The notes beneath the pieces were generated by a model. That model did not search any database. It was given only the letters and a program-made list of their open reading frames with translations, and was not told the origin of the DNA. This document shows, one piece after another, positions 21,475-42,970 of a DNA stretch of 64,000 nucleotides. The position numbers and the translations under genes were made by a program. Positions within the stretch are counted from its first letter, which is position 1; each line of letters begins with the position of its first letter. The DNA is from Clostridia bacterium. Its GTDB lineage: Bacteria > Bacillota > Clostridia > Oscillospirales > Acutalibacteraceae. The stretch covers positions 21,113 to 85,112 of the forward strand of contig JAFXAP010000003.1 in the NCBI GenBank assembly GCA_017516965.1, written 5' to 3'.

Positions 21475-21510
21475 AAAGCCTAAGGTTTTTTCCTTAGGCT
21501 TTTTTCTTTT
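21475..21510 (+). terminator. Terminator of the str operon
   Basis: AAAGCCTAAGG (21475-21485) / CCTTAGGCTTT (21492-21502) with a T-loop, followed by TTTCTTTT. Confidence 0.92.
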
Positions 21511-21669
21511 TGTGCAAAATAACATATAAAAATGAGGCGATATTTTGTAAATTTCCACCGTTTTTTTGCTTTTTGTACAAAATGGTCAGTTTTTTGATAA
21601 TATATTTAACAAATAAAATACTTTTTTATTCGTTTTAGCACAAAAAACGCAATTTTTATGTGCAAATTA
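21507..21669 (+). promoter_or_regulatory. Cluster of TTTTTGTGCAAAAT-like sites upstream of the sugar-uptake locus
   Basis: TTTTTGTGCAAAAT at 21507-21520 and TTTTTGTACAAAAT at 21570-21583 differ by one base; the second contains a 12-bp perfect palindrome. GCACAAAA (21638-21645) and TATGTGCAAATT (21658-21669) are related half sites just before the promoter. These may be binding sites of a carbohydrate-responsive regulator. The rest of the 424-bp gap is A/T-rich. Confidence 0.4.
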
Positions 21670-21682
21670 TATATATATATTA

Positions 21683-21711
21683 TTGACAAAGTGTATAAAT
21701 TATTATATAAT
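21683..21711 (+). promoter_or_regulatory. Consensus promoter of the sugar-uptake locus
   Basis: TTGACA (21683-21688), 17-bp spacer, TATAAT (21706-21711). It leaves a leader of about 155 nt before the first start codon. The leader holds a hairpin, TGGGTAA (21735-21741) / TTACCCA (21744-21750), closed outside by GCAA/TTGC. Confidence 0.82.
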
Positions 21712-21872
21712 ATAATCACATTTATATGCAATTGTGGGTAATTTTACCCATTGCAGAAAATGTTTTTTGAAAATGCTTAAAAATTTACTGTTTTTACACA
21801 TAAATTCGGTTGGTTTTTAGGTGATTCGAAAAGGTAATTGTAAAAATCTAAAAAACAGAAAGGATGAATGTT

Positions 21873-24800
21873 ATGAGCAAGAAAATCGTTAGATATTTGT
21901 CAGTGCTTTTGGCAGTATCTATTTTATTTTCAGGAATTTCCTTGCAAATAACCACTGCATTTGCAGATGAAGCTCCAAACGTAGAAACTCCGGCTACTCA
22001 GACACAGCCTGTCGAAGATACAGTTGCTGATTTACAGAGTTATGCTAAGTACACAGCTTCAAAAACAGTAACCAACAAGGCTGATGCCGAAGTAAAGGTT
22101 CCTGTTACTGAATTTGCAGCCGACGGTGCTGATGTTACCGCCAAAGAAAACTCAATTTTTTGGAATGTGGGAGACGGAAATGTCACCTGGACATTTGATG
22201 TTCCCAAAACTGCGCTTTATAATCTCAAATTTGTTTGGGAAACAAGAGACGCTAAAGGCAAACACCTTAGTGGCGTTGATGTTATAACAGGCGTTAAAAT
22301 TGATGGTAAGTATTTGTTTGACGGTTCTGATGAGGTTGTCCTTTCAAGATTGTGGAAAAACAAAGACACCGATTTGAAAACACCTGATGTTGAAGAACCG
22401 CGTACCGATGCTCAGGGCAACGAATATGCACACGAGCAGGAAGAGATTGAAGGCTTTGTTACAACAATTGTTCGTGACTATGAGAGCGCTGTAATCGATC
22501 CGTTTGAATTTGAACTTACAGAGGGCACTCATACAATAACATTGGTAGAGCCAGAACAGTCTTTAGAAATTAAAGAAATTGCTTTTGTTGCTCCGGAAAC
22601 TGTAAAGAGCTATGCTGATGTTTCAGCTTCATATCAGGTAAAAGACCTTGATGCTGATGTTATCTCCATCGAAGGTGAAAATGCTGATGTTAAAACTTCA
22701 AGCTCTATTATTCCAAAAGCAAACAATAGTGATGCAGGTATGTCTTCTTGGGATTCTACCTCAAGCGATCCATATCACACCAAGATAAACTACATTGGTA
22801 GTACATCCTGGCAGTCAACCGGCAACAGCCTTACCTGGTCATTTGATGTTAAGGAAGCGGGTTATTACTATATTAACCTCCGTTACAAACAGAGTGACCT
22901 CGTTAACGGTAACAGTTATCGTTGGCTTAAGGTTGATGGCAAAACACCATTTGAAGAAGCTAAGAAAATTTCTTTCCCATACGGCACAAGCTGGAAGCAC
23001 TACACTTTTGCCGATGATAAGAAAAATCCATACTACATATACCTTGATAAAGGTCCGCACACCATTTCAATGGAAGTAACAGTTGCTGATATGTCTGTTT
23101 ACTTCGACACCCTCAAAGAACTTGTTGACACCATTGGTGACAAGTATATTGAGATTGTTATGATTACCAGTGAATCACCCGACCTTAACCGTGACTATGA
23201 GCTTGATAAGCAAATTCCGGGATTTATCGAAACACTTACCGATGTAAGCAATAAACTTGGACAGTTGTCAACAGATATGACTAACGGTACCGGTAAAGCT
23301 TCACAAGCGGTTGCTTCTATTGATAATATGAAGCGTGTGGTAGACAACATGCTCAAGAGCCCATATATCGCTCAGCAGTATGTTAGTGAGTATTATTCAA
23401 ACTACACTTCACTTAGTTCATGGCTTTATGATATGATCAAGATGCCACTGTCAATCGACCAGATTCAGTTGGTACCGGCAGGCCAGAAATATAATAACCT
23501 CAATGCAAATATATTTGAGAGCTTATATTATGGTACTCTTGCTCTTATCTCATCATTTACCAGTGACTACTCACTCACAGGCGAGGGCGCTAGCGATGCT
23601 AACACAATTCGTCTTTGGGTAAACTGGGGTCAGGATCAGGCAGCTGTTCTTAACTCACTTATTCAGGGTACATTTACACAAAATAAAGATTATTGGTATG
23701 ATGGCGATGGCGACGGTGTTAAAGAGCCTGTAAACGTTCAGGTTGAAATAGTTAACGCTTCACTCATCAACGGTATTTTGGCAGGTAACTATCCTGATAT
23801 GTCTCTTCAGATGGCGCGTACCGAACCTGTTAACTTGGGTATTCGCGGCGCGTTGGCAGACCTTTCAAAGTTCCCTGATTTTAAGGATGTTATTGGTCGC
23901 TTCCAAGACGGTTCTAACTTAGAAACAGGCGCGGTAGCTCCTTATACATACGCAGGTAAAACATACGCATTACCCGATACACAAAACTTTATGCTTATGT
24001 TCTACCGCAAAGACATCTTAGAAAGACTTGGTCTTGATGTTCCTAAGACTTGGGATGAATATTTATATTGTTCTACCGTTATTCAGCGTGATAACATGAA
24101 CGTTTATGTTCCATTTACCCAAATCACAACTTCAACCACCGTTAACGCAGGTATTGGTAACCTTCACCTTTACCCAACACTTATGTGGCAGCACAATCTG
24201 TCTATCTATAATAAGGATGGCACAGCTACTGCAATTAACAGTAAGGAAGCATTAAAGGTGTTTGAACAGTGGACCGATTTCTATCTTGAAAACGGTTTCC
24301 TTAAAGAAGCTGACTTCTACAACCGTTTGCGTGTTGGTGTAATGCCTTTGGGTATTGCTCCATACAGCACATATATGACACTTTATTCTACCGCTCCTGA
24401 AATCCGCGGCAGATGGGGTGTAGCAATGGTTCCCGGCACTGAAAATGAAAACGGTAAAATTAACCGCACCGTTGCAGGTTCAGGTACAGGTTGCTCAATC
24501 ATTGAAAAATCTGATAAGAAAGAACAGGCTTGGTTGTTCCTTAAGTGGTGGACCAGTGCCGACACCCAGACAAGATACAACAACAACTTGCAGTCAATTC
24601 TCGGTATGGTTGGCCGTAATGCCGTATCAAACGTAGAGGCATTTAATAATCTTGCTTGGGATAAGGATGACCTTGTAATCCTTAATAAACAGTGGGAGCA
24701 GATTAAAGAAGTTCAGGAAGTTCCGGGTTCATATGACGTAACACGTTCTATCGACCAGGCATTCTGGGCAGTGCTTGAAGATGAAGCAAGAGTTAAAGAC

Positions 24801-24887
24801 GCAGTTACAAAATGGTCGATGTCTGCAGATAAAGAAATTACTCGTAAGATTAAAGAATACGACCACGTAATTAATACAAATAGTTAA
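21873..24887 (+). CDS. Very large secreted sugar-binding protein (ABC solute-binding domain with N-terminal carbohydrate-binding-like domains)
   Basis: 1004 residues from ATG 21873 (AAAGG at 21859-21863; ATG 21864 is too close to it). A signal peptide is followed by TAFADE with no lipobox cysteine, so cleavage by signal peptidase I is expected. About residues 80-240 and 275-415 are two beta-sandwich modules resembling carbohydrate-binding modules (NVTWTFDVPKTALYNLKFVW; NSLTWSFDVKEAGYYYINL). A helical stretch around 440-530 leads to a family-1 extracellular solute-binding domain (about 545-1004) with typical FMLMFYRKDILERLGLDVPK and AWLFLKWWTSADTQ. It should capture a sugar for the two permeases directly downstream. 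Classical binding proteins are ~420 residues lipoproteins, so both size and lack of a lipid anchor are odd. Confidence 0.85.
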   Translation: MSKKIVRYLSVLLAVSILFSGISLQITTAFADEAPNVETPATQTQPVEDTVADLQSYAKYTASKTVTNKADAEVKVPVTEFAADGADVTAKENSIFWNVGDGNVTWTFDVPKTALYNLKFVWETRDAKGKHLSGVDVITGVKIDGKYLFDGSDEVVLSRLWKNKDTDLKTPDVEEPRTDAQGNEYAHEQEEIEGFVTTIVRDYESAVIDPFEFELTEGTHTITLVEPEQSLEIKEIAFVAPETVKSYADVSASYQVKDLDADVISIEGENADVKTSSSIIPKANNSDAGMSSWDSTSSDPYHTKINYIGSTSWQSTGNSLTWSFDVKEAGYYYINLRYKQSDLVNGNSYRWLKVDGKTPFEEAKKISFPYGTSWKHYTFADDKKNPYYIYLDKGPHTISMEVTVADMSVYFDTLKELVDTIGDKYIEIVMITSESPDLNRDYELDKQIPGFIETLTDVSNKLGQLSTDMTNGTGKASQAVASIDNMKRVVDNMLKSPYIAQQYVSEYYSNYTSLSSWLYDMIKMPLSIDQIQLVPAGQKYNNLNANIFESLYYGTLALISSFTSDYSLTGEGASDANTIRLWVNWGQDQAAVLNSLIQGTFTQNKDYWYDGDGDGVKEPVNVQVEIVNASLINGILAGNYPDMSLQMARTEPVNLGIRGALADLSKFPDFKDVIGRFQDGSNLETGAVAPYTYAGKTYALPDTQNFMLMFYRKDILERLGLDVPKTWDEYLYCSTVIQRDNMNVYVPFTQITTSTTVNAGIGNLHLYPTLMWQHNLSIYNKDGTATAINSKEALKVFEQWTDFYLENGFLKEADFYNRLRVGVMPLGIAPYSTYMTLYSTAPEIRGRWGVAMVPGTENENGKINRTVAGSGTGCSIIEKSDKKEQAWLFLKWWTSADTQTRYNNNLQSILGMVGRNAVSNVEAFNNLAWDKDDLVILNKQWEQIKEVQEVPGSYDVTRSIDQAFWAVLEDEARVKDAVTKWSMSADKEITRKIKEYDHVINTNS

Positions 24888-24905
24888 GAGAGGGGAGAAA
24901 AGCAT

Positions 24906-25853
24906 ATGTCAAAAAACAGTTCTGTTGCAGCAATGCCTGCTGCATCTAAAAAACTCAGTAGTTTTTCACGTGATAAACTTGTAACCGAGCATATTCCAAT
25001 GGTTATAATGCTTGCTCCTTTCTTGATTTTCTTCTTTGTTTTTACTATCATACCTATTTTCTCATCAATCGCTTTGAGTTTTACTTCTTATGATATGATA
25101 GCAAATCCAAAGTTTGTTTGGCTTGATAACTATCGTCGAATGATAGTTGAGGACGCAACATTTAGTGTTACTGTAAGAAACACACTTATCTTTGCTATTA
25201 TCGCAGGTCCTTTAGGCTTCTTGCTTTCGTTTGTACTTGCTTGGTTTGTAAACGAGTTTGAGCCTAAAACACGTGCTGTACTTTCATTTATGTTTTATGC
25301 GCCGTCATTGGTTGGTAACGCATACTTCATTTGGAAGGTAGCATTTAGTGGTGACAGCTACGGTTATATCAATAGTTTCTTACTTTCATTTGGTATTATC
25401 ACTGACCCAATTCAGTGGCTTAAAACCGAAAGCTACCTTATGACAATTGTAATCATAGTTCAATTGTGGCAGAGTATGGGCGTATCCTTCCTTTCAAACA
25501 TTTCCGGTTTGCAGAACGTAAGCCGTGATATGTATGAAGCGGGCGCAATCGACGGTATCAGAAACCGTTGGCAAGAACTCCGTTATATCACTCTTCCTGC
25601 AATGCAGCCAATGCTTTTGTTTAGCGCGGTTATGCAGATTCAGAGTTCATTTAGCGCAAGTGTAATTATGATTGAACTTGCAGGTTACCCAAGTAAAGGT
25701 AATGCGGTTGATACCATAGTATCGCTTATGACCGATATGGCAACAGTTCGTTATGAACTGGGTTATGCATGCGCAATGTCGGTTGTGCTATTTATTATGA
25801 TGGTAGCGGCAAGATTGCTTGTTGGTAAAGTACTTAAATTATTTGAGAAATGA
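24906..25853 (+). CDS. Carbohydrate ABC transporter permease (MalF type), first pair
   Basis: 315 residues with six or so membrane helices (VIMLAPFLIFFFVFTIIPIF and others). The EAA loop YEAGAIDGIRNRWQELRYIT-LP near residue 215 docks the ATPase. A ~35-residue Ser/Ala/Lys-rich cytoplasmic N-terminus precedes helix 1. RBS AGAGGGGAG lies ahead of the ATG, 18 bp after the binding protein gene. It would form the channel with the next gene product. Confidence 0.92.
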   Translation: MSKNSSVAAMPAASKKLSSFSRDKLVTEHIPMVIMLAPFLIFFFVFTIIPIFSSIALSFTSYDMIANPKFVWLDNYRRMIVEDATFSVTVRNTLIFAIIAGPLGFLLSFVLAWFVNEFEPKTRAVLSFMFYAPSLVGNAYFIWKVAFSGDSYGYINSFLLSFGIITDPIQWLKTESYLMTIVIIVQLWQSMGVSFLSNISGLQNVSRDMYEAGAIDGIRNRWQELRYITLPAMQPMLLFSAVMQIQSSFSASVIMIELAGYPSKGNAVDTIVSLMTDMATVRYELGYACAMSVVLFIMMVAARLLVGKVLKLFEK

Positions 25854-25864
25854 GGTGACTGTAG

Positions 25865-26770
25865 ATGAACATATTTGAAAGAATTAAAAGATATTTTCAA
25901 GATAAACGTGGTAAAAAGTCTGCAGTCAAGCGCTATACCCGTTCAACAGCAGGTAATATTACATTGGTGTTGTTCTTGGTTTTGGGTGGTCTTTTCTCAA
26001 TGTTACCACTTATCTACTGCGTTAGTACCTCGTTTAAGCCTCTCGACGAACTTCTTATCTTCCCACCAAGATTTTTGGTTCATCGTCCTACAATAGGCAA
26101 CTACACAATATTGCCTGACCTTATGGCAAGTCTTAAAGTTCCGCTATCAAGATACGTGTTTAACAGTGTTGTAATTTCATTCTTCACTACATTTATATAT
26201 ATCTACGTAGCACTTATGGCTGCTTACTCAATTTCAAAAGGCACATTTAAAGGTCGTAACGCAATATTCTGGACCGTTCAGTTCGCTCTTATGTTTAACG
26301 CATATACTTTGGCGGTTCCACAGTATTTGATTTTCTCAAAACTAGGTCTTATCGATACCTATTGGATATACATACTGCCACCTATGGCATCAACAATGGG
26401 TGTATTCCTTGGTAAACAGTATATAGAAGGCTATGTGCCCGATGCGCTGCTTGAGGCGGCAAAAATTGACGGCGCAAATCAATTTAAGGTTTTCTGGTCA
26501 ATTGTAATGCCAACTATTAAACCTATTTGGTTGACCCTATTGCTCTTTACCTTCCGTGATATTTGGTCTGCAGTTCCTTCCGGTAAAATCTTTTCTGAAC
26601 AGTTAAAGATTTTGCCTCAGGTAGTAACCCAGATTACTGCCGGCGGTGTGGCCCGTTCGGGTTCCGCAATGGCGGTTACGGTTATTATGATGATACCTCC
26701 TATACTGGTGTTCCTTGTTTCACAAAGCAGTGTTGCTGAATCAATGAGCAGCGCAGGTATTAAGGAATAA
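25865..26770 (+). CDS. Carbohydrate ABC transporter permease (MalG type), first pair
   Basis: 301 residues. A basic N-terminus is followed by about six helices (LVLFLVLGGLFSMLPLIYCV first) and the EAA loop LEAAKIDGANQFKVFWSIV-MP near residue 200. It starts 11 bp after the MalF-type gene. No ATP-binding subunit is encoded in the locus; a shared MsmX-like ATPase elsewhere is the usual solution in Firmicutes. Confidence 0.92.
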   Translation: MNIFERIKRYFQDKRGKKSAVKRYTRSTAGNITLVLFLVLGGLFSMLPLIYCVSTSFKPLDELLIFPPRFLVHRPTIGNYTILPDLMASLKVPLSRYVFNSVVISFFTTFIYIYVALMAAYSISKGTFKGRNAIFWTVQFALMFNAYTLAVPQYLIFSKLGLIDTYWIYILPPMASTMGVFLGKQYIEGYVPDALLEAAKIDGANQFKVFWSIVMPTIKPIWLTLLLFTFRDIWSAVPSGKIFSEQLKILPQVVTQITAGGVARSGSAMAVTVIMMIPPILVFLVSQSSVAESMSSAGIKE

Positions 26771-26802
26771 GCATTCAAATATTACATAAGGAGATGAGAA
26801 CA

Positions 26803-28920: not shown

Positions 28921-28937
28921 AAAGGAGGAACTATTTT

Positions 28938-32127: not shown

Positions 32128-32145
32128 TAAGGGAGGTAGACACAA

Positions 32146-33177
32146 ATGAATAATCCCTTTAAAAATATAAAAGAGGCTGACAAACTAAAGGCCATAAAAT
32201 ACGCTAACGTAGGCGGAAGTGTGTTGTATTCTTTGTTCAGATATGCATTGCTTTTGTCAATTGGATTTATTATCATATATCCGCTTTTGTATATGATTGT
32301 AACTTCAATTACAAGTCCGTTAGCATTCCTTAACTCAACACGTGTTTGGATTCCTACCGATTTTCTTATAAAAGACAACTATGCAAAGGCACTACAGGCG
32401 CTCGATTACTGGGATTCTCTTAAAAACACTTTCTTTTACCCAATAGCCAGCGCTTTGCTCGAGGTTTGCTCTTGCGCTATTATCGGTTACGGTTTTGCGC
32501 GTTTTAACTTCAAGGGCAAAAAAATTCTTTCAGGCATATTGTTCCTTACAATTCTTATTCCTGAAATGATGTTGGTTATGCCACGAATGGCTAACTACGG
32601 CAACCTTGATTTCTTGGGCATCTTCGGCGGTATTGAAAAATTAGTTGAGTGGGTAGCTTCCTTGTTTGGTTCTGATATCACAGCAACATTTGACCTAACC
32701 CCCAACATTGTAAACACAGGTTGGACAATGTGGTTACCGTCATTCTTTGGTATTGGTCTTCGTTCTGGTGTGCTTATCTACATCTACATACAATTCTTCA
32801 CAGGTCTTCCTCGTGAACTTGAAGAAGCTGCGTGGGTTGATGGTGCAGGTCCGTTAAAAACATTCCTTAAAATTGCGGTTCCTTCATCAAGCGTTGTGTT
32901 TATTACCGTATTGGTGTTCTCAATCGTTTGGCACTGGAATGATTCATTGCTTACCAGCATCTATTTCACTGAAACAGAACCTTTGGCACCGGCTCTTGTA
33001 GGCGCAAAAGAATACTTGGGCGCTGCTTGGGGATTGTATGGCGGTAAGGGTGCTCCGCAGCAGGCGGCTGTTATGATGGCGATATGCCTGTTGTTCATTA
33101 CTCCTGTACTTATTTTCTATATGTTTATTCAACGTGGTTTTGTTGAAAGTATTGACCGTGTTGGTATTACAGGTTAA
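32146..33177 (+). CDS. Carbohydrate ABC transporter permease (MalG type), second pair
   Basis: 343 residues, longer than usual because of an insertion around residues 155-200 between central helices (FGGIEKLVEWVASLFGSD). EAA loop EEAAWVDGAGPLKTFLKIAVP near 225-245. RBS GGGAGG before ATG 32146. Followed by a strong terminator, so it closes the first operon of the locus. Confidence 0.92.
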   Translation: MNNPFKNIKEADKLKAIKYANVGGSVLYSLFRYALLLSIGFIIIYPLLYMIVTSITSPLAFLNSTRVWIPTDFLIKDNYAKALQALDYWDSLKNTFFYPIASALLEVCSCAIIGYGFARFNFKGKKILSGILFLTILIPEMMLVMPRMANYGNLDFLGIFGGIEKLVEWVASLFGSDITATFDLTPNIVNTGWTMWLPSFFGIGLRSGVLIYIYIQFFTGLPRELEEAAWVDGAGPLKTFLKIAVPSSSVVFITVLVFSIVWHWNDSLLTSIYFTETEPLAPALVGAKEYLGAAWGLYGGKGAPQQAAVMMAICLLFITPVLIFYMFIQRGFVESIDRVGITG

Positions 33178-33181
33178 TTTT

Positions 33182-33213
33182 AAAAAACGGTGGTTGCTTA
33201 CCACCGTTTTTTT
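33182..33213 (+). terminator. Terminator after the second permease pair
   Basis: AAAAAACGGTGG (33182-33193) / CCACCGTTTTTTT (33201-33213), loop TTGCTTA. Both flanks are A/T tracts, so it may work in both directions. Confidence 0.92.
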
Positions 33214-33296
33214 GTGCAAAAAAACTATATTTTTTACCCAGAAACACTAAAATTTTAATAAATAATATTGACAAAAATAGTTTTTGGTAATATAAT
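33209..33296 (+). promoter_or_regulatory. Promoter of the second solute-binding protein, with a TTTTTGTGCAAAAA site upstream
   Basis: TTGACA (33268-33273), 17-bp spacer, TATAAT (33291-33296). TTTTTGTGCAAAAA at 33209-33222 matches the sites before the first binding-protein gene, though here it partly overlaps the terminator T-run. The leader is about 120 nt. Confidence 0.75.
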
Positions 33297-33421
33297 TCTA
33301 ACTGTAGAGATATGTTTGTATTTGTGAAAGCGTGCTGTGTATTTTGCTATTACAAATACATATGTATCAGATACGTTCGTGCTATAACGCACAATTTATT
33401 TAAAAAAGGAGAAAATTGAAC

Positions 33422-35005
33422 ATGTTCAACAAAACAAAGCGCATTTTTGCAATTGTGCTTGCAGTTGCATTGGTATTTGCCCTTGCAGGCTGTAAAGGCG
33501 TTGAGGACGACGGTTCTTCTGTAGAGTACGTAATCGAAGAAGAAGTTGTTGTTCAAGGCGGTAACAACAGCGGTACAACTACTATAGTTGGCGGCAATGA
33601 CAACAATGCCAATACCAATGATGGTAACACAGGTAACACTGGCAACACCGGTAACACTGGCAACACCGGTAACACCGGCAACACCGGTAACACTGGTAAC
33701 ACTGGTAATACTGGTAACACTGGTAATACTGGTAATACCGGTAACACAGGTAATACCGGTAACACTGGTAACACTGGTAACACAGGTAATACAGGTAATA
33801 CCGGTAACACCGATAACACAGGCATTGACTACGAGGCACTTAAGGGCACAACCGTTAAGTTTGCATCTACTATCGATCCTAAAGACGACGGTACACAGTA
33901 CGTTGTTGATAGCTTTGAAGAAAAGTATGGCATAAAGGTTGAAATCGTTAAATGTACACTTCCTGGTTATGTTCAGGAAATGCAAGGTCTTATCGCTAAC
34001 GGTAATGCGCCTGACGTAGGTCGTTCAAACGGTGACTTCCCGGCATGTATTGCATACTTCGATTCACTTGACAAGTCAAAGATGGACTACAATGATCCTA
34101 TCTGGAATCAGAACACCTTCCGTCTTACAACCTTTAATGGTTCACCTTATATGTGTGATACATATGGTTGTTACTGGACAGAGCTTGACATCGTTATGTA
34201 TTCTAAGCGTTTGCTCAAGGCTGCTGGTTGCCCAACCCCACAAGAACTTGACGCTCAGGGTCAGTGGACTTGGGACAACTTTATGATGATCGCTGAAAAG
34301 TGCACTCAGAAGATGGGCGCACCTGCTGGTTGTATCAACACTACTGAACTTGGTCTTCACATGGCTGGCGGTAACGTATTCAAAATCCAAAACGAAAAAA
34401 TCGTTAACGGTATTGATGGTAAAACAACCGCTATCGTTAAGAAGTTTGCTGAAGCTTGGAAAAAAGGTATCCTCAACAACAAATCTACAGTTGGTATAGC
34501 TGAAGGTACAACCGCTATCGGTACCGGTCACGCTTGGTCACTCCGTAAAGACGGTGACGTTGCTGCTCGTGGTGCTCAGGTAGCTGACCTCGGTTTCTAT
34601 TACTTGCCCTCTTACACAGCTGGTGGCGCAAGACCTGCAACCGGTATCTTCCGTGGTTTCGGTATCATGCGTGGTGCTGCTAACCCTGTAGGCGGCGGCG
34701 TATTCCTCCGTCACTACCTCGACGTTAACAACTATGATACCGTTAACGCATTCATCAACGAAGATGCTAAAAGCTTCTTCTTCCAGCTTACTACACAGGA
34801 TTACGCAGAAAACTACAATCCATACCTCACATACATTGGTCTTAACCAGGATATCGCTGGTGTTAACTACGGTACTGATATCTACGGTGTTATGTATATG
34901 GATCCTTCTGCTGTTGATGGTAAGATGGCTGCTGTTAAGGCTGCTGTTGATAAGGGCGCTAAGAACCTTAACGACCACATCACTAAGTATCTCTATTCTA
35001 ACTAA
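33422..35005 (+). CDS. Sugar-binding lipoprotein of an ABC importer with a 21-unit Gly-Asn-Thr linker
   Basis: 527 residues from ATG 33422 (AAAGGAG upstream). Lipoprotein signal with LAGC at C24. A low-complexity linker (about residues 65-135) is built of 21 tandem Gly-Asn-Thr triplets. The rest (about 145-527) is a family-1 solute-binding domain: DSFEEKYGIKVEIVK, then GNAPDVGRSNGDFPA and CDTYGCYWTELDIVMYSKRL. It probably serves the second permease pair, with the linker holding the domain away from the membrane through the cell wall. It is followed by its own terminator. Confidence 0.9.
   Translation: MFNKTKRIFAIVLAVALVFALAGCKGVEDDGSSVEYVIEEEVVVQGGNNSGTTTIVGGNDNNANTNDGNTGNTGNTGNTGNTGNTGNTGNTGNTGNTGNTGNTGNTGNTGNTGNTGNTGNTGNTGNTGNTDNTGIDYEALKGTTVKFASTIDPKDDGTQYVVDSFEEKYGIKVEIVKCTLPGYVQEMQGLIANGNAPDVGRSNGDFPACIAYFDSLDKSKMDYNDPIWNQNTFRLTTFNGSPYMCDTYGCYWTELDIVMYSKRLLKAAGCPTPQELDAQGQWTWDNFMMIAEKCTQKMGAPAGCINTTELGLHMAGGNVFKIQNEKIVNGIDGKTTAIVKKFAEAWKKGILNNKSTVGIAEGTTAIGTGHAWSLRKDGDVAARGAQVADLGFYYLPSYTAGGARPATGIFRGFGIMRGAANPVGGGVFLRHYLDVNNYDTVNAFINEDAKSFFFQLTTQDYAENYNPYLTYIGLNQDIAGVNYGTDIYGVMYMDPSAVDGKMAAVKAAVDKGAKNLNDHITKYLYSN
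33623..33811 (+). repeat. 21 tandem copies of a 9-bp unit encoding Gly-Asn-Thr
   Basis: Units are GGY-AAY-ACN with no interruption from 33623 to 33811; the next triplet changes to Asp-Asn-Thr. Synonymous third-base variation (for example GGTAACACT, GGCAACACC, GGTAATACC) is scattered among units. Confidence 0.97.
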
Positions 35006-35035
35006 TAGACTTACTTCGGCTTAGTTAAAATTTTT

Positions 35036-35073
35036 AAAATGACTGCCATGGAAACATGGCAGTCATTTTTTTA
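35036..35073 (+). terminator. Strong terminator with GAAA tetraloop
   Basis: AAAATGACTGCCATG (35036-35050), GAAA, CATGGCAGTCATTTT (35055-35069), then more T. A perfect 15-bp stem. Confidence 0.94.
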
Positions 35074-35190
35074 TGTCATATTTTTTGCTAAGAAATACCA
35101 TATTGCGATTTATTATTTACAGTTTTTGTCACTACAATACAAAAAACACAAAAAAATTAAAAAAATTCAAAAAAATTTGTATATTTGTTA

Positions 35191-35219
35191 TTGACTTATT
35201 GACTGAAATTTGATATTAT
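35191..35219 (+). promoter_or_regulatory. Promoter of the large surface protein gene
   Basis: TTGACT (35191-35196), 17-bp spacer, TATTAT (35214-35219). The -35 region is duplicated: TTATTGAC occurs twice in tandem (35189-35204). The 320-bp gap otherwise holds the terminator, A-rich sequence and the leader described next. Confidence 0.75.
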
Positions 35220-35234
35220 TTAGAAGTAAATATA

Positions 35235-35326
35235 GGGTGTGATTTTATGCCCTGTTGGCGTAGGTCACATTTACAGCGCGTAAGCGCAAAAAAATTAGCT
35301 CGTATGGGCGGAAGGATGGTATTTTG
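35235..35326 (+). promoter_or_regulatory. Structured leader of the surface protein gene
   Basis: Within about 90 nt, TGTGA (35238-35242) can pair with TCACA (35265-35269), and GCGC-GTAA-GCGC (35276-35287) forms a GNRA-capped hairpin. It does not match a riboswitch consensus that I recognise. Confidence 0.35.
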
Positions 35327-38300
35327 ATGAAAAAAATACTTAGCAATGGCAAAGTAATTGTTTCATTCATCTCGGTGTTCGCAATATTGGCAGTTTCACT
35401 ATTGTCAATGTTTACAGGCGTTTCCTTTATGGCAGCAGCCGAAGGCGATACCGACACAGGCGTTGTTACATACCCAATAGGCGGCAAGTATGAAGCCGAC
35501 TATAAAGAGGTAAAAACTCCTGGTATTGAGTATGTTGCAGTTGATCCTGCCAAGAAAACCAAGACCGATTTATTTACCGGTTTTGAAACTGATTTCTGTG
35601 TTAATCCCAACACAGAAGGTAACGGTACTGCAGGTAATCCTTACATCATTAAAACTGCTAACCAGTTTGCAGCAGTTGTAACATGTCAACTTAAGGATGC
35701 CTCAGACAACTGGATTGACACTGACGGTCTTTACTTCAAGATTGCTGATAATATTAAGGGCTTTAACCTTAAAAACACAAATTGCGATGTTGATTTCAGT
35801 AAAGACACCCTTACTGCAAAAGATGTTGAAAATGCTCTTAAAAACCTTGAAGTTCCCTCAGATCTCAAGTGGGAAAACAAGAGCGGCAAACCGTTTAAAG
35901 GTCGCTTTGACGGTAACGGCGCTCAGGTTTACGGTCTTAAGGGTGATGCCGGTTATACCGCTATTTTCCCAAAAATAGGCGGTAATATCACTGTTAAAAA
36001 CCTTACAGTTAAAAACTGTTACTTTATCGGTAATAACGTTTCTGCATTGTTTGGCGCTAACATGAATCCTGGCAAATCATCTACATTTAACACTAGGCAC
36101 AATTTGTATAACTGTCAAGTGTACAACAACGTTATAGTTTGTACCTTTGCTACTGATGAAGCTATTCAAAAAGCTGGTGTGCTTATCGGTCAGTCAGAAT
36201 GGCCAACCGAATCTAACCTTGTGTTAAATGACTGCTTGGTATACGGTAACGTTGCAAAGCACGCTGAAAATGATGACAATAACCCTGACAACCGTAACAT
36301 TACCTACGGTATGGTTGGTAACTTGCATCGTAATCTATCATTTATGGTTTACAACTCTATCTTGATGGATTCAGCTCCTCACGCGCTTTACCATGGTTCT
36401 AACGCTCATCTTACAGCTGTATCAAACAATATGTACACAAACATGATGTATACAGCTCCTACTCCGTGGGAAAACGTTGACTATAATAAAAATGGTGGTA
36501 TGTGGAAATACGTTTACACCTATACAGTCTCTGGTGGAGTAGTAAACGTTAAGTTCGACAGATTTAACAAAGATGGCGTTAGCGATGTTGATTACGGAAA
36601 AGGTTATAATCGCACTTTGGCCAATACCCAGATTTTTGTTGTAAATAAAAAAGACATAACGGGTACTAAAGTACTCGAGGGCTTAAGCTCAGAGAGATGG
36701 ACCTATAACAAAAACGGTTACCCAACACCAAAGATTTATAAGGTTCGTGAGTACTCTGAAGGCACCAACTGGTCAGGTGAAAAGGCTGTTCAGTTTGGTG
36801 AAGGTGAAGGTACCACTTCTGCTCCTTACACAATAGCTACTGCCGAAGAGTTGGCTCTTATGCTTATAGAGCCGGTTGCCGGTGCTTGCTATAAGCTTAT
36901 TGCTGATATCGAAATTAATGATACCTCTGTTGAAAACTGGACCAAAACTGCTAAAAAGTGGTTCACATCAAATGACGTTCCCGCATTTGAAGCTTCACTT
37001 GATGGTGACGGTCATACCGTAAGCGGTATTTATTATGATGGTAAACAATCAGGTGAATATGCAGGTCTTATTCCTGTAATTGGTAACACTGCAGAAATTC
37101 GCAACATCAAGATTGCTAATTCTTACATTGCTGCTAAAAAAGGTTATGCAGGTGCGCTTGCAGGTGCAGTTGCTGACAAATGCGGCAAAGCACTTAAGTT
37201 TGATGCTTGTACAATTGAAGACACTGTTGAATTTGCCGGCAAAGCTAAATTTGGCGGTATGGTTGGTAAACTTGGTTACAGTATGATTCACATTAATGAC
37301 TGTATCTCAAAAACCAATGGTCTCTTTAACACAGTAACAGGTATTGCAAAGGTTAAACGTTCAGTTTCTGTTGGCGCAAATATTGCCAGTGGTGAATTTA
37401 ATGCTGATGATATTAAGGCTGAAAATGTTTATACCGATACTGAATCTACCATTGCAGGTGTAACTGTTGTTCCTGCAGATGCTATGAAGGGCGCCGGCGC
37501 GGCTGACGCTATGCCTGGTCTTAACTTCCCAACATCTTGGAAAGTTACTGATGACAGTTATCCCACACCTACAGGTGTTGCAGCATCTGCTGAAGGTATA
37601 GTAGGCGAGGCTTGGTCTGGTTCTATTGCAACAAGTTATGCTCTCGCTTATGAAAACCCCAACAAGTCTGGTGAAAAATGGGTAGGCGACGGTTCTAAAG
37701 AATATCCTTACATAATCGAAACTGCTGAGCAGTTGGCATATTTCGTTTGGAAGGGTGAAAAAGGTACCAAAGATAAAATAGTAAATGTTAAACTTGCTGC
37801 TGATATCTACCTTAGCGACGTTGAGTGCAAACTTTGGGAAGATAAGGTTGGTGGTACCAACTGGTTTACCCAAAGGACTACACAGTCTTACAATAATATG
37901 ATGGGTATTGACTTTGACGGCGACGGCTATGTAATTCACGGCTTGTTCATTGATTACTCACTCTCTAAGGGTGACTATATCCGCGCTGGTTTGTTCCCAA
38001 TGTTAGGCGCGTATTCAACCGTTCGAAACGTTGGTCTTTCTAACGCGTATATGGTTGGTCGCACCAATGACGCTACATATCGTGACGTTGTTGGCGGCTT
38101 TGTAGGTTGTACCGAAGATTTTGATAAGTTCTTAAACCTCAACTCACACGATGCTGAGGCCAATAAGATAAAACTCCAAGACCCTGCAAACGACTATGAA
38201 AATATGGCAGTTAAATTTAAAAACTGCTTTATCGACCATAGAAGTTATATTTCAGCATACTGCACCGGTGGTTTTACTGGCGAACCTTATGCTGCTCCAA

Positions 38301-39631
38301 TCATTGAAAACTGTATCTTTACAGGTACTATAGGCGGCCATCAAGACCCATACTACACAGGTGTTTTAACAGGTTGTGACTCAACCAACGGCTCACAAAT
38401 CAGAAACACTGTTGTATTCCCTGTAGGCGGTCAGACAAAGCTTATAGGTGGCTCTGGTGGTTCTAGCTGGCGTAGTTCACCAATTTACTACGTAACACAC
38501 GCTACTAACGTTTACTACTTTGCAACAACTCAGTCATACGGTGGTACATTTAAGAAGCTTTCTAATCCAAACCAACGTGTTGGCGAAGAAGCAATGATTG
38601 CAATGCCGCTTCTCGACTGGGATGAAACCTGGCGTACTGTAGATGGCGGTACACCACTACTTCGTATATTTGATAAAAACCGTTCTGAAGAACAAGTAAA
38701 TGACGAAAACAATAAGCGTGTAAAGGTTATCGCTGAGTACTTCTCATTGGTTGACTATACACCTCCTTCAACTACACTTTCATTTGAAACAATGGCGCCC
38801 GCAGCAGACGTTGAGGCACCTCCAGCAGTTGAAGCTCCTATGTATTCTGACCTTAAACCATTGCCGGTACTTTCACGTGACGGTTATGAATTCTTAGGTT
38901 GGTTTGTATTTGATGACCCTGCAATTCCTTATGAATACTCATATCATCCACCTCGTGACCTTACACTTTATGCTGGTTGGAAACAGTTGGGTGTTGTTCA
39001 GACATTTGACGAATATCCTAACACAATTTGGGATTTTGATTCTAACTTCTGGACTCTTAACCAGCCTGGTGCAAAGGGCGGTTACAAGAATGAATATGTT
39101 CGTAACGGTAGTAAATCAATGCACCTTTTAGGCGAAACATCTAGTTCGGTTGACTGTTTGCTTAACTATGAGCAAATGCTTACCCCAGGTAAGTCATATA
39201 CATTGTCTTTCTGGGTAAACACTGATAAGGATGATAACCCTGCGACACTTCTTTCACTTGTTCATAACAGCAAACCTGACTACCTTAACAGCACAGTTGC
39301 TATAGAAAACATTGCTGTAGTTAAGGGTCTTAAGGTTGGTAAGTGGGTACAATATACTTACTCATTCACCGCGCAGACTAAGTGGGTATCACTTAGAGCT
39401 ACAGGCGCTGCAAGTCTTTGGTTTGATGACGTTATTATGGCTGAGCTTGATGCTCCACTGGCTACATCTAACATTGCTGCTAAATCAGCAATAACAGGTG
39501 TAAACGGCGGAACATTGGCGCCAAAGGCCAGCAATACTGTTTCGGTTGCAGTTCTTATTTCAGTTGTTATGACCTGCGCAGTTGTGGCAGTTCTTTCAAG
39601 AAAAGACCGTAACGAAGTTGTAGAAGACTAA
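35327..39631 (+). CDS. Large beta-helix-type surface protein with C-terminal CBM-like domain and membrane anchor
   Basis: 1434 residues from ATG 35327. A signal peptide (VIVSFISVFAILAVSLLSMF) precedes three related modules at about 85-430, 480-730 and 790-1110. Each opens with a G-x-G...PYII-x-TA-x-(E/Q)-(L/F)-A pattern and contains a GLUG-like DGDGHTVSGIYYDG strand set, indicating a right-handed beta-helix. A Listeria/Bacteroides (InlB B-type) repeat follows (VLSRDGYEFLGWFVFDD, LTLYAGWKQLG), then a CenC-like beta-sandwich (about 1225-1380) and a final hydrophobic helix with SRKDRNEVVED, a membrane anchor without LPXTG. The first module is copied in the gene at 61.3 kb. A role in binding plant polysaccharide is inferred from context. 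Confidence 0.85.
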   Translation: MKKILSNGKVIVSFISVFAILAVSLLSMFTGVSFMAAAEGDTDTGVVTYPIGGKYEADYKEVKTPGIEYVAVDPAKKTKTDLFTGFETDFCVNPNTEGNGTAGNPYIIKTANQFAAVVTCQLKDASDNWIDTDGLYFKIADNIKGFNLKNTNCDVDFSKDTLTAKDVENALKNLEVPSDLKWENKSGKPFKGRFDGNGAQVYGLKGDAGYTAIFPKIGGNITVKNLTVKNCYFIGNNVSALFGANMNPGKSSTFNTRHNLYNCQVYNNVIVCTFATDEAIQKAGVLIGQSEWPTESNLVLNDCLVYGNVAKHAENDDNNPDNRNITYGMVGNLHRNLSFMVYNSILMDSAPHALYHGSNAHLTAVSNNMYTNMMYTAPTPWENVDYNKNGGMWKYVYTYTVSGGVVNVKFDRFNKDGVSDVDYGKGYNRTLANTQIFVVNKKDITGTKVLEGLSSERWTYNKNGYPTPKIYKVREYSEGTNWSGEKAVQFGEGEGTTSAPYTIATAEELALMLIEPVAGACYKLIADIEINDTSVENWTKTAKKWFTSNDVPAFEASLDGDGHTVSGIYYDGKQSGEYAGLIPVIGNTAEIRNIKIANSYIAAKKGYAGALAGAVADKCGKALKFDACTIEDTVEFAGKAKFGGMVGKLGYSMIHINDCISKTNGLFNTVTGIAKVKRSVSVGANIASGEFNADDIKAENVYTDTESTIAGVTVVPADAMKGAGAADAMPGLNFPTSWKVTDDSYPTPTGVAASAEGIVGEAWSGSIATSYALAYENPNKSGEKWVGDGSKEYPYIIETAEQLAYFVWKGEKGTKDKIVNVKLAADIYLSDVECKLWEDKVGGTNWFTQRTTQSYNNMMGIDFDGDGYVIHGLFIDYSLSKGDYIRAGLFPMLGAYSTVRNVGLSNAYMVGRTNDATYRDVVGGFVGCTEDFDKFLNLNSHDAEANKIKLQDPANDYENMAVKFKNCFIDHRSYISAYCTGGFTGEPYAAPIIENCIFTGTIGGHQDPYYTGVLTGCDSTNGSQIRNTVVFPVGGQTKLIGGSGGSSWRSSPIYYVTHATNVYYFATTQSYGGTFKKLSNPNQRVGEEAMIAMPLLDWDETWRTVDGGTPLLRIFDKNRSEEQVNDENNKRVKVIAEYFSLVDYTPPSTTLSFETMAPAADVEAPPAVEAPMYSDLKPLPVLSRDGYEFLGWFVFDDPAIPYEYSYHPPRDLTLYAGWKQLGVVQTFDEYPNTIWDFDSNFWTLNQPGAKGGYKNEYVRNGSKSMHLLGETSSSVDCLLNYEQMLTPGKSYTLSFWVNTDKDDNPATLLSLVHNSKPDYLNSTVAIENIAVVKGLKVGKWVQYTYSFTAQTKWVSLRATGAASLWFDDVIMAELDAPLATSNIAAKSAITGVNGGTLAPKASNTVSVAVLISVVMTCAVVAVLSRKDRNEVVED
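35549..36758 (+). repeat. Copy 1 of a 1.2-kb duplicated segment
   Basis: Aligns with 61457-62666 at a constant offset of 25,908 bp, so no net insertion or deletion. The first ~450 bp are almost identical (I count roughly eight to ten substitutions); divergence rises afterwards. Both copies lie inside surface-protein genes in the same frame. Confidence 0.95.
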
Positions 39632-39652
39632 TTGGAAAGGATGGGTTTACTG

Positions 39653-42166
39653 ATGAAATTTAATAGTTCTATAAAAAGATTTGCCTGTCTTCTTCTTGCA
39701 CTTCTAATGCTTCTTGGTGTAGTTGGCTGTAAAGACAAGACCAAAAAGAAGAAAAAGGTAATTAAGAAAAAGGTTATTGTTGTTCAGGATGACGAAGCAG
39801 GAAATAATATCATTTATTTACCTGGAAACAACAATAACAACAACAATAACAATAATAGCGGCAACAATAATTTTGATGACGGCAACAACAATTTTGATGA
39901 CGGCAACAATAATTTTGATGACGGTAACGGTGACAACAACGGTAATGATGATAACAATAACGACAATGACGTTATTGTTACCACCAGACCGGAGCGTTCA
40001 CTTCCTACAGCCGCTGAAGCTGGTATTGTAATTCTTGACGATCCTATCGTTGATGAATTTGACCACGTGTACAAAAACTATAAATTTACAAACAAACATG
40101 TAATTGTTTATGGTTATACTGAGTGGGAAGATCGTTATGAAGGCTATAAAGATGCTAAAGATCTTGGTAAAACTCCCACCGACAAAAATGCTAATGCTAT
40201 AAAGTACACTCAAGAAAACCTTATCGCTGCTCAGGATATTCAAACTTGGGTAAAAGACAATTACAACTTCAATCTTGAGGTTGTTCGTGATACTGTTTAT
40301 AAAGAGCAAATTGGTAATAAATATACAGGTAATGAACCTAAGATTATTATCGGTGATTGCTTGTACCACACATCAAAACTTGCTGAAAACAAGTTTGAGG
40401 TTAAGGTTGTTGGTGATGACCTTGTATTTGACGGCGGTCACTTTGCGCTTGTTGAATCAGCAGTTGACTGGTTCCGTTCTGTTGAGGTAAAGAGTGGCAA
40501 GGTTGCTTGCCTTACAAGCAAAAACAAGGAATTTAAATCACAGATTACTCTTGATGGCAAAACCTATGACTATATCTGGGGCGACGAATTCGACGGTTAT
40601 GAATTCAACGACAATGAAAAATGGGCTCAGTCAACATTTGGTCTTGAACGTCAGGACGATATGGCTAACATTTTTGAAGATCCTAAGTTCCAGTATGTTG
40701 AAAACGGTAAGGTTCGACTTACAGGTGACCGTTACTATGATGAAGGTAGCAGTGTAATCGGTTATGCAACATCAGGTCAGATTGATACAAACTCATCTGC
40801 TGTATTTAGAAATGGTTACTTTGAGTTCTATGCTCGTTTACCATACAGACGCGGTGGTTTCCCGGCTATCTGGACAATGACTGCCGATGCAGGTGGTTTG
40901 TCTGGCGCTAACGCAGTTCCAAACCTTAACAAGAACGACGGTTACGGTCTTTACAGAGATCGTGTTTGGGACCTTGAATTTGACTTGTTTGAATCATTTG
41001 CTGACGCTGACCATATGACCACCACTATCCATAAGTGGTACACACCAAAATACACCGGTCCTAATGATTATAATAACCGAACAAGTTTTGGTGAGGGCAA
41101 CAGCAAAAATTGGGAAGACCTTACTCTTGAAGAGGAAAGAATGGTTGCAGCCGATTTAGCAAACAGAAACGGAAATTCCGAAGAACGTACTAACTGGGAA
41201 TATGCAGATCCTACCAACCGCGCAAAAGATTGGTGGAAAGCTTGTAACCTTCATAAGACTGATAAGTCTGGTGCTGACCGTTGCCTTTGCTATTACTACG
41301 TTAACTCTAAGGGCGAAAAAGACCTTCAGATTAACTACAACGGTCAAGAGGTTTGGATTTGTGAATCTTTAGCAAATCAGCAAATTATTGATATTGCTTC
41401 AGGTGAATATAAACTAAACGCTGACGGTAACGAAATCATTGCTACCAAGGGCGACTTGAGAAAATTTGACTATAATAATAGAAAAGCTCAGGCAGAAAAA
41501 CTTGGTATAGAATTTACCGAAAAGTTTGAAAAGCAAGAGGGCGACGAAACAGAAGCAACCTTGCAGGAACTTATTTCTGCAGGTTATTTAAAGGCTGCTC
41601 ACGTTCGTCAAAAGATTCTCTTTAACTTTAGTGAAAACGATGTTGTTGATACATTCAAATATCGCTTAAGTCCATTTACCAATATGAGCAATGGTATGAA
41701 TACCTATGCATATTCATTCTCATATACAGGTACTCCAAGTAACAGACGTGAAGATCCTGATGGTATGTACGGTGACTGGAGATGGTATTTCGATGAAGAA
41801 ACCATTAACAACGAATATCACCTATATGCATTCAAATACACATCTGATCACTGTGCTGTTTATATGGACGGTGAAAAGTTCCTTGACTTTGACTGGGATC
41901 CTGCATATGACTATAAGGATCTTGACGGCGACGGCAAGGGTGATGACATCAGCCGTAACAACAACGGTGTTGGATTTAACTTCTGGCAGTACTTCCTCGT
42001 AGATATGATGATTTACACACCAGGTAACTTCGCTATTGACTATGCTCGTAAGATTCAGCCAGGCGACTGCCCATTCCATCTCTATATCGACTATGTTCGT
42101 TTCTATCAAGATTTGGATGATCCTTCACAGGCTGTTCACTACCTTAACGGCACTGGCGTTAAATAA
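39653..42166 (+). CDS. GH16-family glycoside hydrolase lipoprotein
   Basis: 837 residues from ATG 39653; ATG 39641 lies directly on the GGAAAGG RBS and gives no better signal peptide. Lipobox VVGC at C26, then Lys-rich and Asn/Asp-rich linkers (about 30-115). The GH16 domain begins near WGDEFDGYEFND (about 312) and contains E442-F-D444-L-F-E447, the E-x-D-x-x-E catalytic motif of bulged GH16 enzymes such as laminarinases and lichenases. A ~230-residue insertion (about 455-680) separates this from the C-terminal strands (YHLYAFKYTSDHCAVYMDGEK). It should cut beta-1,3 or mixed-linkage glucan (or another GH16 substrate) at the cell surface. It is 21 bp after the surface protein gene. Confidence 0.87.
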   Translation: MKFNSSIKRFACLLLALLMLLGVVGCKDKTKKKKKVIKKKVIVVQDDEAGNNIIYLPGNNNNNNNNNNSGNNNFDDGNNNFDDGNNNFDDGNGDNNGNDDNNNDNDVIVTTRPERSLPTAAEAGIVILDDPIVDEFDHVYKNYKFTNKHVIVYGYTEWEDRYEGYKDAKDLGKTPTDKNANAIKYTQENLIAAQDIQTWVKDNYNFNLEVVRDTVYKEQIGNKYTGNEPKIIIGDCLYHTSKLAENKFEVKVVGDDLVFDGGHFALVESAVDWFRSVEVKSGKVACLTSKNKEFKSQITLDGKTYDYIWGDEFDGYEFNDNEKWAQSTFGLERQDDMANIFEDPKFQYVENGKVRLTGDRYYDEGSSVIGYATSGQIDTNSSAVFRNGYFEFYARLPYRRGGFPAIWTMTADAGGLSGANAVPNLNKNDGYGLYRDRVWDLEFDLFESFADADHMTTTIHKWYTPKYTGPNDYNNRTSFGEGNSKNWEDLTLEEERMVAADLANRNGNSEERTNWEYADPTNRAKDWWKACNLHKTDKSGADRCLCYYYVNSKGEKDLQINYNGQEVWICESLANQQIIDIASGEYKLNADGNEIIATKGDLRKFDYNNRKAQAEKLGIEFTEKFEKQEGDETEATLQELISAGYLKAAHVRQKILFNFSENDVVDTFKYRLSPFTNMSNGMNTYAYSFSYTGTPSNRREDPDGMYGDWRWYFDEETINNEYHLYAFKYTSDHCAVYMDGEKFLDFDWDPAYDYKDLDGDGKGDDISRNNNGVGFNFWQYFLVDMMIYTPGNFAIDYARKIQPGDCPFHLYIDYVRFYQDLDDPSQAVHYLNGTGVK
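39860..39922 (+). repeat. Three 21-bp tandem repeats in the linker of the GH16 lipoprotein
   Basis: Units 39860-39880, 39881-39901 and 39902-39922 each encode Gly-Asn-Asn-Asn-Phe-Asp-Asp with one synonymous difference. An AAC/AAT (Asn) run precedes them. Confidence 0.95.
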
Positions 42167-42175
42167 TTAAATCTT

Positions 42176-42207
42176 AAAAAAACAGACCCGAAAGGGTCTG
42201 TTTTTTT
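42176..42207 (+). terminator. Terminator at the end of the uptake locus
   Basis: AACAGACCC (42181-42189), GAAA tetraloop, GGGTCTGTT (42194-42202), then T5; preceded by A5. Confidence 0.94.
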
Positions 42208-42848: not shown

Positions 42849-42873
42849 ATTACGGGTTTTCCCGTATATATAT

Positions 42874-42943: not shown

Positions 42944-42970
42944 ATCCTAAAATCAAGAGAGGTAAAAGAG

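Follow-up and report, generated by a model that had tools for sequence, protein, structure and literature searches.

We identified a seven-gene core at positions 21864–33177 of the window (the whole 64,000-nucleotide stretch of DNA analysed) that we read, with a probability of about 0.58, as one inherited glycan-import unit: two ABC importers that would share a UgpC/MsmX-type ATPase, with DUF5696 and propeller/Yip1 proteins as putative helpers. The core comprises, in order, a solute-binding protein (S1), a MalF/MalG-type permease pair (F1 and G1; pair 1), a propeller/Yip1 protein, a DUF5696 protein and a second permease pair (F2 and G2; pair 2), and the F2 start overlaps the DUF5696 end by 8 nt (Table 1). 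The first-pass annotation had described nine genes here. The ORF list of the window confirmed their place on the forward strand and gave ten ORFs when each permease was counted, with a constant unit of seven. Because this arrangement recurs across the phylum, it is not a product of chance.

Table 1. Features of the core, its neighbours and candidate regulatory sites (window positions)
Feature	Position	Strand	Evidence
Terminator-like hairpin after EF-Tu, parting EF-Tu from the module	21475..21502	+	
Perfect TTGACA-N17-TATAAT promoter-like site before S1	21683..21711	+	
S1 binding protein, 1007 aa, secreted or N-terminally anchored	21864..24887	+	Pfam SBP_bac_1
F1, MalF-type permease, pair 1	24906..25853	+	Pfam, tree, EAA loop intact
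G1, MalG-type permease, pair 1	25865..26770	+	Pfam, tree, EAA loop intact
Propeller (NHL-like)–TPR-like–transmembrane–Yip1 protein, 708 aa	26794..28920	+	Pfam Yip1
DUF5696 lipoprotein, GH129 homologue	28938..31232	+	Pfam DUF5696, profile comparison
F2, MalF-type permease, pair 2	31225..32127	+	Tree, EAA loop intact
G2, MalG-type permease, pair 2	32146..33177	+	Pfam, EAA loop intact
Perfect promoter-like site before S2	33268..33296	+	
S2, lipoprotein solute-binding protein with collagen-like (GNT)n linker, variable partner	33416..35005	+	Pfam SBP_bac_8
Terminator-like hairpin after S2, 15 pairs	35036..35069	+	
1435-aa protein, local neighbour	35324..39631	+	CBM_4_9 match
GH16-like lipoprotein, local enzyme	39632..42166	+	phmmer, motif

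In a phylum sample scored for up to three DUF5696 candidates per genome, all 36 other genomes with a DUF5696 protein at E < 1e-100 also carried a propeller-Yip1 protein at E < 1e-100. One further genome below 1e-50 (G301) was considered as an instance of Yip1 without DUF5696 and rejected, as its 284-aa Yip1 ORF lies on an 8.5-kb contig and was taken to be truncated. We then compared gene order in 101 DUF5696 regions from 28 family codes (the window and 100 fetched regions, these being the best full-length match per genome plus extra copies in G023, G007, G391, G432 and G125) and in a partly overlapping set of 80 named loci. Typed genes on the same strand with less than 400 nt between them were counted as adjacent; since ORFs begin at the most upstream start codon, these gaps are biased short. 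The Yip1 gene adjoined DUF5696 in 100 of the 101 regions and both pair 2 genes followed in 95; all seven genes stood in order in 77 regions and in 69 of the 80 named loci. Individual parts were found in the regions as Yip1 100, F2 99, G2 95, G1 85, S1 83 and F1 82, and in the named loci as Yip1 79, F2 77, G2 76, F1 72, G1 72 and S1 70. The first-pass annotation had named a lack of joint conservation of these families as grounds for its refutation; the counts instead show propeller-Yip1 and DUF5696 conserved together and with both permease pairs.

Rearranged loci revealed two blocks within the core, S1 with pair 1 (block A) and Yip1–DUF5696 with pair 2 (block B). Five loci carry block B before block A, and one genome (G121) contains three full modules, three copies of block B only and one of block A only. 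Loss of S1-F1-G1 in some families was rejected: in G121, the genome followed up in full among those in which these genes do not lie beside block B, they are present elsewhere. Separable blocks, together with a second solute-binding protein on either side in 73 of the 80 named loci, would also be expected of two independent importers with different substrates, kept in one operon since their sugars share a polymer and accompanied by accessory proteins with no direct role in transport. We consider this unlikely, given that co-occurrence in the sample is strict and that DUF5696 and Yip1 diverge in step with both pairs from copy to copy. Across seven part-pairs, module copies co-diverged within G007 (ten modules; Mantel r = 0.37–0.72) and within G023 (nine modules; r = 0.54–0.87), with p values of 0.0005–0.015. 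S1 tracked F2 almost as well as F1 (0.47 versus 0.62 and 0.61 versus 0.69), so co-divergence does not settle the pairing within the module.

By tree and motif, each of the two permease pairs forms an old subfamily of its own, and the predicted ATPase-coupling loops are intact. Pfam BPD_transp_1 matched F1 (1.4e-6), G1 (7.6e-9) and G2 (1.6e-13), and its match to F2 (3.1e-4) fell below the cut-off. All 63 F1 and all 77 F2 sequences formed separate clades with support of 1.0 against 13 other F-type permeases, in line with the divergence of the pairs noted previously, which is deep. The 64 G1 sequences likewise grouped together (support 0.87), and the G2 clade received support of 0.53 in one tree and 1.0 in the other, with one comparator falling among G2; two of the 15 G-type comparators came from a G121 locus (L320) that is itself a module. 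The tree with G2 support of 1.0, from which the F1, F2 and G1 figures also come, took alternate regions from the set of 101 and one in three of the 80 named loci. The E, G and P of the EAA loop were kept in 153/153 F1 and 157/157 G1 proteins. F2 kept E and P in 174/174 and G in 172/174, and G2 kept G in 169/169, E in 154/169 (D in 12) and P in 167/169. An earlier, stricter F2 pattern, which had matched 63/99, was judged too narrow. Decay of pair 2, as the F2 score might indicate, was rejected, as nearly every copy retains an intact coupling loop.

This intact loop also argues against a module that serves mainly as a sensor, in which the propeller-Yip1 and DUF5696 proteins would use pair 2 to alert a regulator to captured glycan, with import left to pair 1 alone. 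Such a role could fit the occurrence of block B without block A alongside, the regulators near some named loci (AraC HTH in 8/99 and response regulators in 4/99 of the scanned neighbours) and the two-component system downstream of the core at window positions 43377–45560. The core, however, comes without any constant regulator, and we regard a sensor as quite improbable.

The 181 regions examined contained 11 ATPase-like ORFs, and none was of MalK size. The window's own genome (85% complete) has 30 ABC-ATPase places, and of the three matches of 355–390 aa, which were the ones examined, one is of the UgpC type and could serve these permeases. The core resembles CUT1 importers with a shared MsmX/UgpC ATPase in its solute-binding protein (S1, like S2, is extracytoplasmic by its Pfam match), its MalF/MalG-type heterodimers with EAA loops and its lack of an ATPase gene in the cluster. 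It differs from them in having, within a single operon, two permease pairs of separate subfamilies, and in its two constant accessory proteins.

Of these accessory proteins, the propeller protein matched Pfam Yip1 (3e-17) and the other matched DUF5696 over nearly the whole profile (8e-136). Single hhalign comparisons of DUF5696 with GH129, in which the GH129 side held only three sequences, one truncated, gave E values of 3.9e-18 and 3.5e-24 (probabilities of 99.0 and 99.6% over 576 and 582 columns) and, in a further comparison, 2.9e-13 (98.0, 451 columns). The GH129 profile group was led by P0001, a close NagBb homologue (phmmer 1e-130), and the match was nearly full length, spanning the barrel and flanking domains. 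The DUF5696 profile also matched 5wzn (3e-5) and, from three weak stretches together, 5opq (7.8e-7). DUF5696 proteins are thus GH129 homologues, with the GH129 alpha-N-acetylgalactosaminidase NagBb and GH129-like DagB as their closest known counterparts; they differ in that the catalytic acids are mostly lost and both His and Asp in the HLDGW motif are replaced.

We take NagBb E478 to be the second GH129 catalytic acid. The first, D435, is named in PMC5698469. Only 3 of 177 DUF5696 proteins strictly kept this acid pair, and the protein in the window has D at one position and S at the other. Within a loose alignment window, 44/177 keep acids near both positions, so some DUF5696 proteins may be enzymes. 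At the HLDGW motif, H was found in 0/177 and an acid at the Asp position in 6/177; these two residues may be metal ligands, and both are Ala in the 5wzq chain. Near-invariant residues of DUF5696 were E656 (168/177), N596 (165/177) and D556 (156/177).

On these comparisons, DUF5696 is probably a glycan-binding former glycosidase. It might instead be an active exo-glycosidase or transglycosidase at the cell face, using a catalytic pair unlike that of GH129 to trim oligosaccharides ahead of their import. The nearly full-length homology, the near-invariant residues and the 44 loosely retained acid pairs are compatible with such an enzyme, as is the partly different residue set on which DagB relies according to PMC5698469. 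The rarity of the strict acid pair, the altered HLDGW motif and the constancy of DUF5696 while adjoining enzymes vary all speak against it, and we judge it rather unlikely.

Twelve weak PF18952 matches were fetched and eight were scanned in Pfam, all of which were set aside: L271 (DUF5696, GH101 and a sub-cut-off GH129), L277 (GH129 and DUF5696), L273 (DUF5696, DUF6259 and GH101), L272 (DUF5696 alone), two alpha-amylases and two DUF6259 proteins. Matches in G051, G359 and G381 exceeded the PF18952 cut-off and were excluded from the module counts, those in G051 and G381 being read as GH129-like. Three PDB matches at E 0.5 (KomC), obtained in the analysis of the DUF5696 gene, were taken as chance, and a PF11308 profile search of 299 genomes returned no match, as did its controls.

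S1 carries its binding-protein domain at the C terminus (residues 633–902; SBP_bac_1, 4.6e-16), behind an N-terminal extension of about 570 residues with weak CBM35 and Golvesin matches below the cut-off. Its PDB matches were to the binding-protein domain, apart from one designed protein. S2 matched SBP_bac_8 (1.3e-13) and bears a collagen-like GNT linker. We rejected S2 as part of a nine-gene operon, as it has its own promoter-like site, a hairpin after it and a position that changes between loci (of the 80 named loci, 49 have it upstream of S1 and 26 have it downstream of G2); nor are S2, the 1435-aa protein and the GH16-like protein constant across loci. Promoter-like sites overall did not exceed chance in the window (61 versus 55.1 ± 8.6 in shuffles), nor did terminator-like sites (20 versus 15.9 ± 4.9). 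Five promoter-like sites had 0–1 mismatches, three of them perfect (shuffle mean 0.94), and the perfect sites are the only unusual ones. Aligning the three promoter regions gave no further result.

The 1435-aa protein had been called a giant beta-helix, a description we could not confirm: Pfam found only CBM_4_9 at residues 1240–1354, and a PDB search gave no match at E ≤ 0.1. By eye, it has a C-terminal hydrophobic segment. The assignment of a GH16 lipoprotein fared better. The ORF had no Pfam match at 0.01, and phmmer aligned residues 292–422 with solved GH16 enzymes (6t2n, 1.3e-7); its translation contains EFDLFE, which fits the GH16 motif ExDxxE. It is a local neighbour and not a constant member of the locus, and it alone points to a beta-glucan substrate, which it suggests. 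Elsewhere the core adjoins GH43, GH10, GH26, GH53, GH78, GH38 or GH2. Neighbour scans took in 81/151 and 99/237 ORFs, and the 25 commonest families included GH43 (19/99), GH10 (10/99) and GH26 (5/99).

This diversity of polysaccharide-active enzymes beside the core, and the thirteen DUF5696 places in G007, a genome of the same genus, are difficult to reconcile with a module that recycles or assembles the cell's own envelope glycans rather than using food polysaccharides. Although DUF5696 and Yip1 are membrane proteins, and we know of no ligand for either, we consider an envelope role highly improbable. The window has the gene content of a Gram-positive polysaccharide-utilisation locus (transporter, GH16-like enzyme and two-component system). 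Like such loci, the module combines transporter genes with glycoside hydrolases and, in some cases, regulators; unlike them, it has an importer part of seven genes that stays fixed from copy to copy while the enzymes beside it differ. XynEFG, as described in the available parts of PMC10269863, has one solute-binding protein and one permease pair.

In the inherited import unit that we favour, both importers would be powered in trans by a common UgpC/MsmX-type ATPase. Block A would be an importer in which S1, with its large N-terminal extension, feeds pair 1, and block B a second importer whose membrane-side partners, DUF5696 and propeller/Yip1, would work with pair 2. Membrane-anchored, GH129-derived and with its catalytic apparatus mostly lost, DUF5696 would most likely hold glycan chains, and pair 2 would most likely be scaffolded or gated by the propeller–TPR part, outside, together with the Yip1 part in the membrane. 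The substrate would be set by extracellular enzymes and S2, both of which vary by locus. We infer physical complexes and transport by the module from sequence. More tentatively, the core may be a double ABC machine with its own receptor principle, in which DUF5696 is a glycan-holding receptor coupled by propeller-Yip1 to a dedicated pair 2 beside a conventional importer; this Gram-positive SusCD counterpart, in many copies with varied enzymes, seems to us possible rather than probable.

The Bacteroidota SusC/SusD systems resemble the module in layout, with a constant capture-import core repeated within a genome beside changing enzymes. The module, in contrast, has no outer membrane or TonB porin and would be ABC-driven; no porin family appeared among the Pfam matches of the scanned window proteins. 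We found no description of the module in the available parts of the open-licence PMC papers PMC6484121, PMC8579813, PMC5698469, PMC8106489, PMC4765114, PMC10269863 and PMC12827396, and no paper on DUF5696 in the open-licence PMC literature. Culturable strains of Paenibacillus and Cohnella would allow its parts to be put to the test. If our reading is correct, Paenibacillus, Cohnella and many Clostridia would share a fixed core for polysaccharide capture and import, and its presence could flag utilisation loci in the way that SusCD genes do for Bacteroidota. This would account for the two permease pairs in so many loci and assign roles to two so far uncharacterised families, propeller-Yip1 and DUF5696, the latter a glycosidase fold turned probable binding protein.

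The first-pass annotation had described a nine-gene cluster in the window, which comes from a 1.62-Mb draft genome of 85% completeness. We split this cluster into a unit of seven genes and additional genes, on the basis of promoter-like and terminator-like sites that precede the unit and flank the second binding protein, S2. The unit comprises, with short gaps, the genes for the binding protein S1, MalF/MalG permease pair 1 (F1 and G1), a propeller/Yip1 protein, a DUF5696 lipoprotein and permease pair 2 (F2 and G2), with an 8-nt overlap between DUF5696 and F2. S2, a 1435-aa protein downstream of it and then a GH16-like lipoprotein lie outside the unit. In S2, a collagen-like (GNT)n linker, about 60 residues long, connects the lipid anchor to the binding domain. 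Another perfect TTGACA-N17-TATAAT site, the third in the window, lies at the very start of an ORF listed at 48715, so the true start of that ORF may be further downstream. Possible regulators are encoded just 3' of the GH16-like gene: a sigma-70-like factor and a paired response regulator and histidine kinase.

Positions of locus features in the window
Feature	Position	Context
Terminator-like hairpin	21475-21502	after EF-Tu
Promoter-like site, perfect	21683-21711	downstream of the hairpin, before the seven-gene set
Promoter-like site, perfect	33268-33296	frames S2
S2	33416-35005
Terminator-like hairpin	35036-35069	frames S2
Sigma-70-like factor, response regulator/histidine kinase pair	42300-45560
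Promoter-like site, perfect	48715-48743	start of listed ORF

The PF18952 (DUF5696) profile matched in 47 of 60 relatives and 46 of 398 genomes of the phylum; one genome of the same genus, G007, has 14 such places (13 DUF5696 and one GH129 protein). HMMs derived from the window proteins served to type the genes of 100 regions around full-length DUF5696 matches. With the window counted, DUF5696 was adjoined by a propeller-Yip1 gene in 100 of 101 regions and followed by F2 in 99 and G2 in 95, and the complete order S1–F1–G1–Yip1–DUF5696–F2–G2 was present in 77. Several loci ending at a contig edge were scored as misses in the order counts. The Yip1 protein was a single ORF in 68 regions and at least two ORFs in 32. 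The complete order also occurred in 69 of 80 loci in a second, named set (the best 80 of 541 relatives), from Paenibacillus, Cohnella, Caldicoprobacter, Mahella, Lederbergia, Halalkalibacter, Lachnospiraceae and others. In this set, using the most upstream starts, gaps were ≤30 nt in most gene pairs and DUF5696 overlapped F2 by a median of 4 nt. The seven-gene module is real and widely conserved. At two named draft-genome loci (L206 and L216) the propeller-Yip1 gene is broken into several ORFs, through either assembly error or decay.

DUF5696 matched at E<1e-100 in 36 phylum-sample genomes besides the window's own, and all 36 had a propeller-Yip1 match at E<1e-100, with a profile made from module members and so biased in their favour. 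The only further genome below 1e-50 (G301) has a 284-aa Yip1 ORF on an 8.5-kb contig; the best match in any other sampled genome was 3.8e-18, and the weak matches, among those listed, mostly cover the propeller part only. Five regions have the order Yip1–DUF5696–F2–G2–S1–F1–G1, and in genome G121 three full modules occur alongside three Yip1–DUF5696–F2–G2 blocks (without S1–F1–G1 within the fetched region) and one S1–F1–G1 block alone. At the rearranged locus L329 (G023:C32), S1 is preceded by a permease pair made up of F2 plus a G-type gene, and a 582-aa ORF sits between Yip1 and DUF5696. Because of these rearranged orders and separate blocks, DUF5696 and propeller-Yip1 travel more closely with pair 2 than with pair 1. 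Distances between parts were correlated across seven part-pairs in G007 (10 full modules, r 0.37–0.72) and in genome G023 (9 full modules, r 0.54–0.87; Mantel p 0.0005–0.015 across both), and the copies therefore diverge as units. The S1–F1 correlation was just slightly tighter than S1–F2.

Among the region permeases, clade support was 1.0 for F1, 0.999 for G1, 0.995 for F2 and 0.534 for G2. When 13 additional F-type permeases, drawn from three genomes, were included for comparison, F1 (63/63) and F2 (77/77) were each monophyletic with support of 1.0. With 15 G-type comparators, two of which themselves belong to a module locus, G1 was monophyletic (0.87) and a G2 clade (1.0) held 74 of 75 G2 proteins plus one comparator. 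With F1 as query, F1-type genes scored ≤7.8e-70, and the best-scoring permease after them reached 3.1e-38. All four permease classes retain an intact coupling loop. ATPase-like ORFs were present in 11 of 181 regions (197–314 or 730–742 aa), none of them MalK-sized. The window's own genome encodes three ATPases of 355–390 aa: one UgpC-type, its gene adjoining a pseudouridine-synthase-like gene (named by eye), one polyamine-type-like and one export-type-like. Because multitask ATPases are known for the UgpC-type class (PMC7658222), we infer that this ATPase may power the module permeases. Elsewhere in this genome, a GH16-like protein (L163:278-1042) is encoded 5' of genes for an ABC ATPase and permease of the spermidine/putrescine type (by eye).

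The S1 binding domain is closest to Lin1841 (5ysb, 1e-25), and the N-terminal half of S1 gave just weak, below-cut-off CBM35/Golvesin matches. By profile, propeller-Yip1 combines an NHL-type propeller and TPR with a C-terminal Yip1 domain. S2 has a lipobox-like motif in 47 of 49 upstream and 12 of 26 downstream copies (named set, best 80 of 541 relatives). DUF5696 has a hydrophobic N terminus in 169 of 181 copies and a lipobox-like motif in 76, and is therefore likely to be membrane-anchored.

In the PDB, a 52-sequence DUF5696 profile matched the GH129 enzyme NagBb (5wzn, 3e-5) and GH129-like DagB (5opq, 7.8e-7, over three stretches, none significant singly). Profile–profile comparison with a three-sequence GH129 group covered nearly the whole length (E 3.9e-18 and 3.5e-24; 2.9e-13 over 451 columns in the tool's own run). 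The GH129 protein of G007 (P0001; L271:607-2457, minus strand) is a close match to NagBb (1e-130) and is also hit by PF18952 (1.3e-17). Among 177 distinct DUF5696 proteins, the histidine of the GH129 HLDGW motif was never kept and its aspartate position was acidic in six. Acids stood at both catalytic columns in three proteins strictly, or in 44 with a loose window. The aromatic at the GW position (173), N596 (165), E656 (168) and P624 (177) were kept. Because of the GH129 homology and the mostly changed catalytic and HLDGW residues, we read DUF5696 as a putative binding protein derived from a glycosidase; the main rival reading is that it is an enzyme with another residue set. That DUF5696 may act as a receptor is the bold part of our proposal.

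The enzymes beside the module differ between loci. In the named loci (best 80 of 541 relatives), 99 scanned neighbour ORFs included GH43 (19), GH10 (10) and GH26 (5), as well as CBM6, CBM35, GH53 and GH9; in the window's own genus and order, 81 included GH16 (5), dockerin (6), GH78 (3) and GH31 (2). Ten neighbour proteins from nine G007 modules comprised GH78, GH16 (two), GH38, GH2, a deacetylase, dockerin proteins (two), one without a match and one with DUFs only. The six dockerins among the 81 are type I, which hints at a cellulosome-like assembly in the own genus and order. At most, the GH16 neighbour suggests a beta-glucan-like or galactan substrate for the window module. The module is built on a known class, the ABC sugar importers, and is itself undescribed in the literature passages, as far as these go. 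Its core is constant and its adjoining enzymes vary, a likeness to polysaccharide utilisation loci, where a constant core lies beside changing enzymes.
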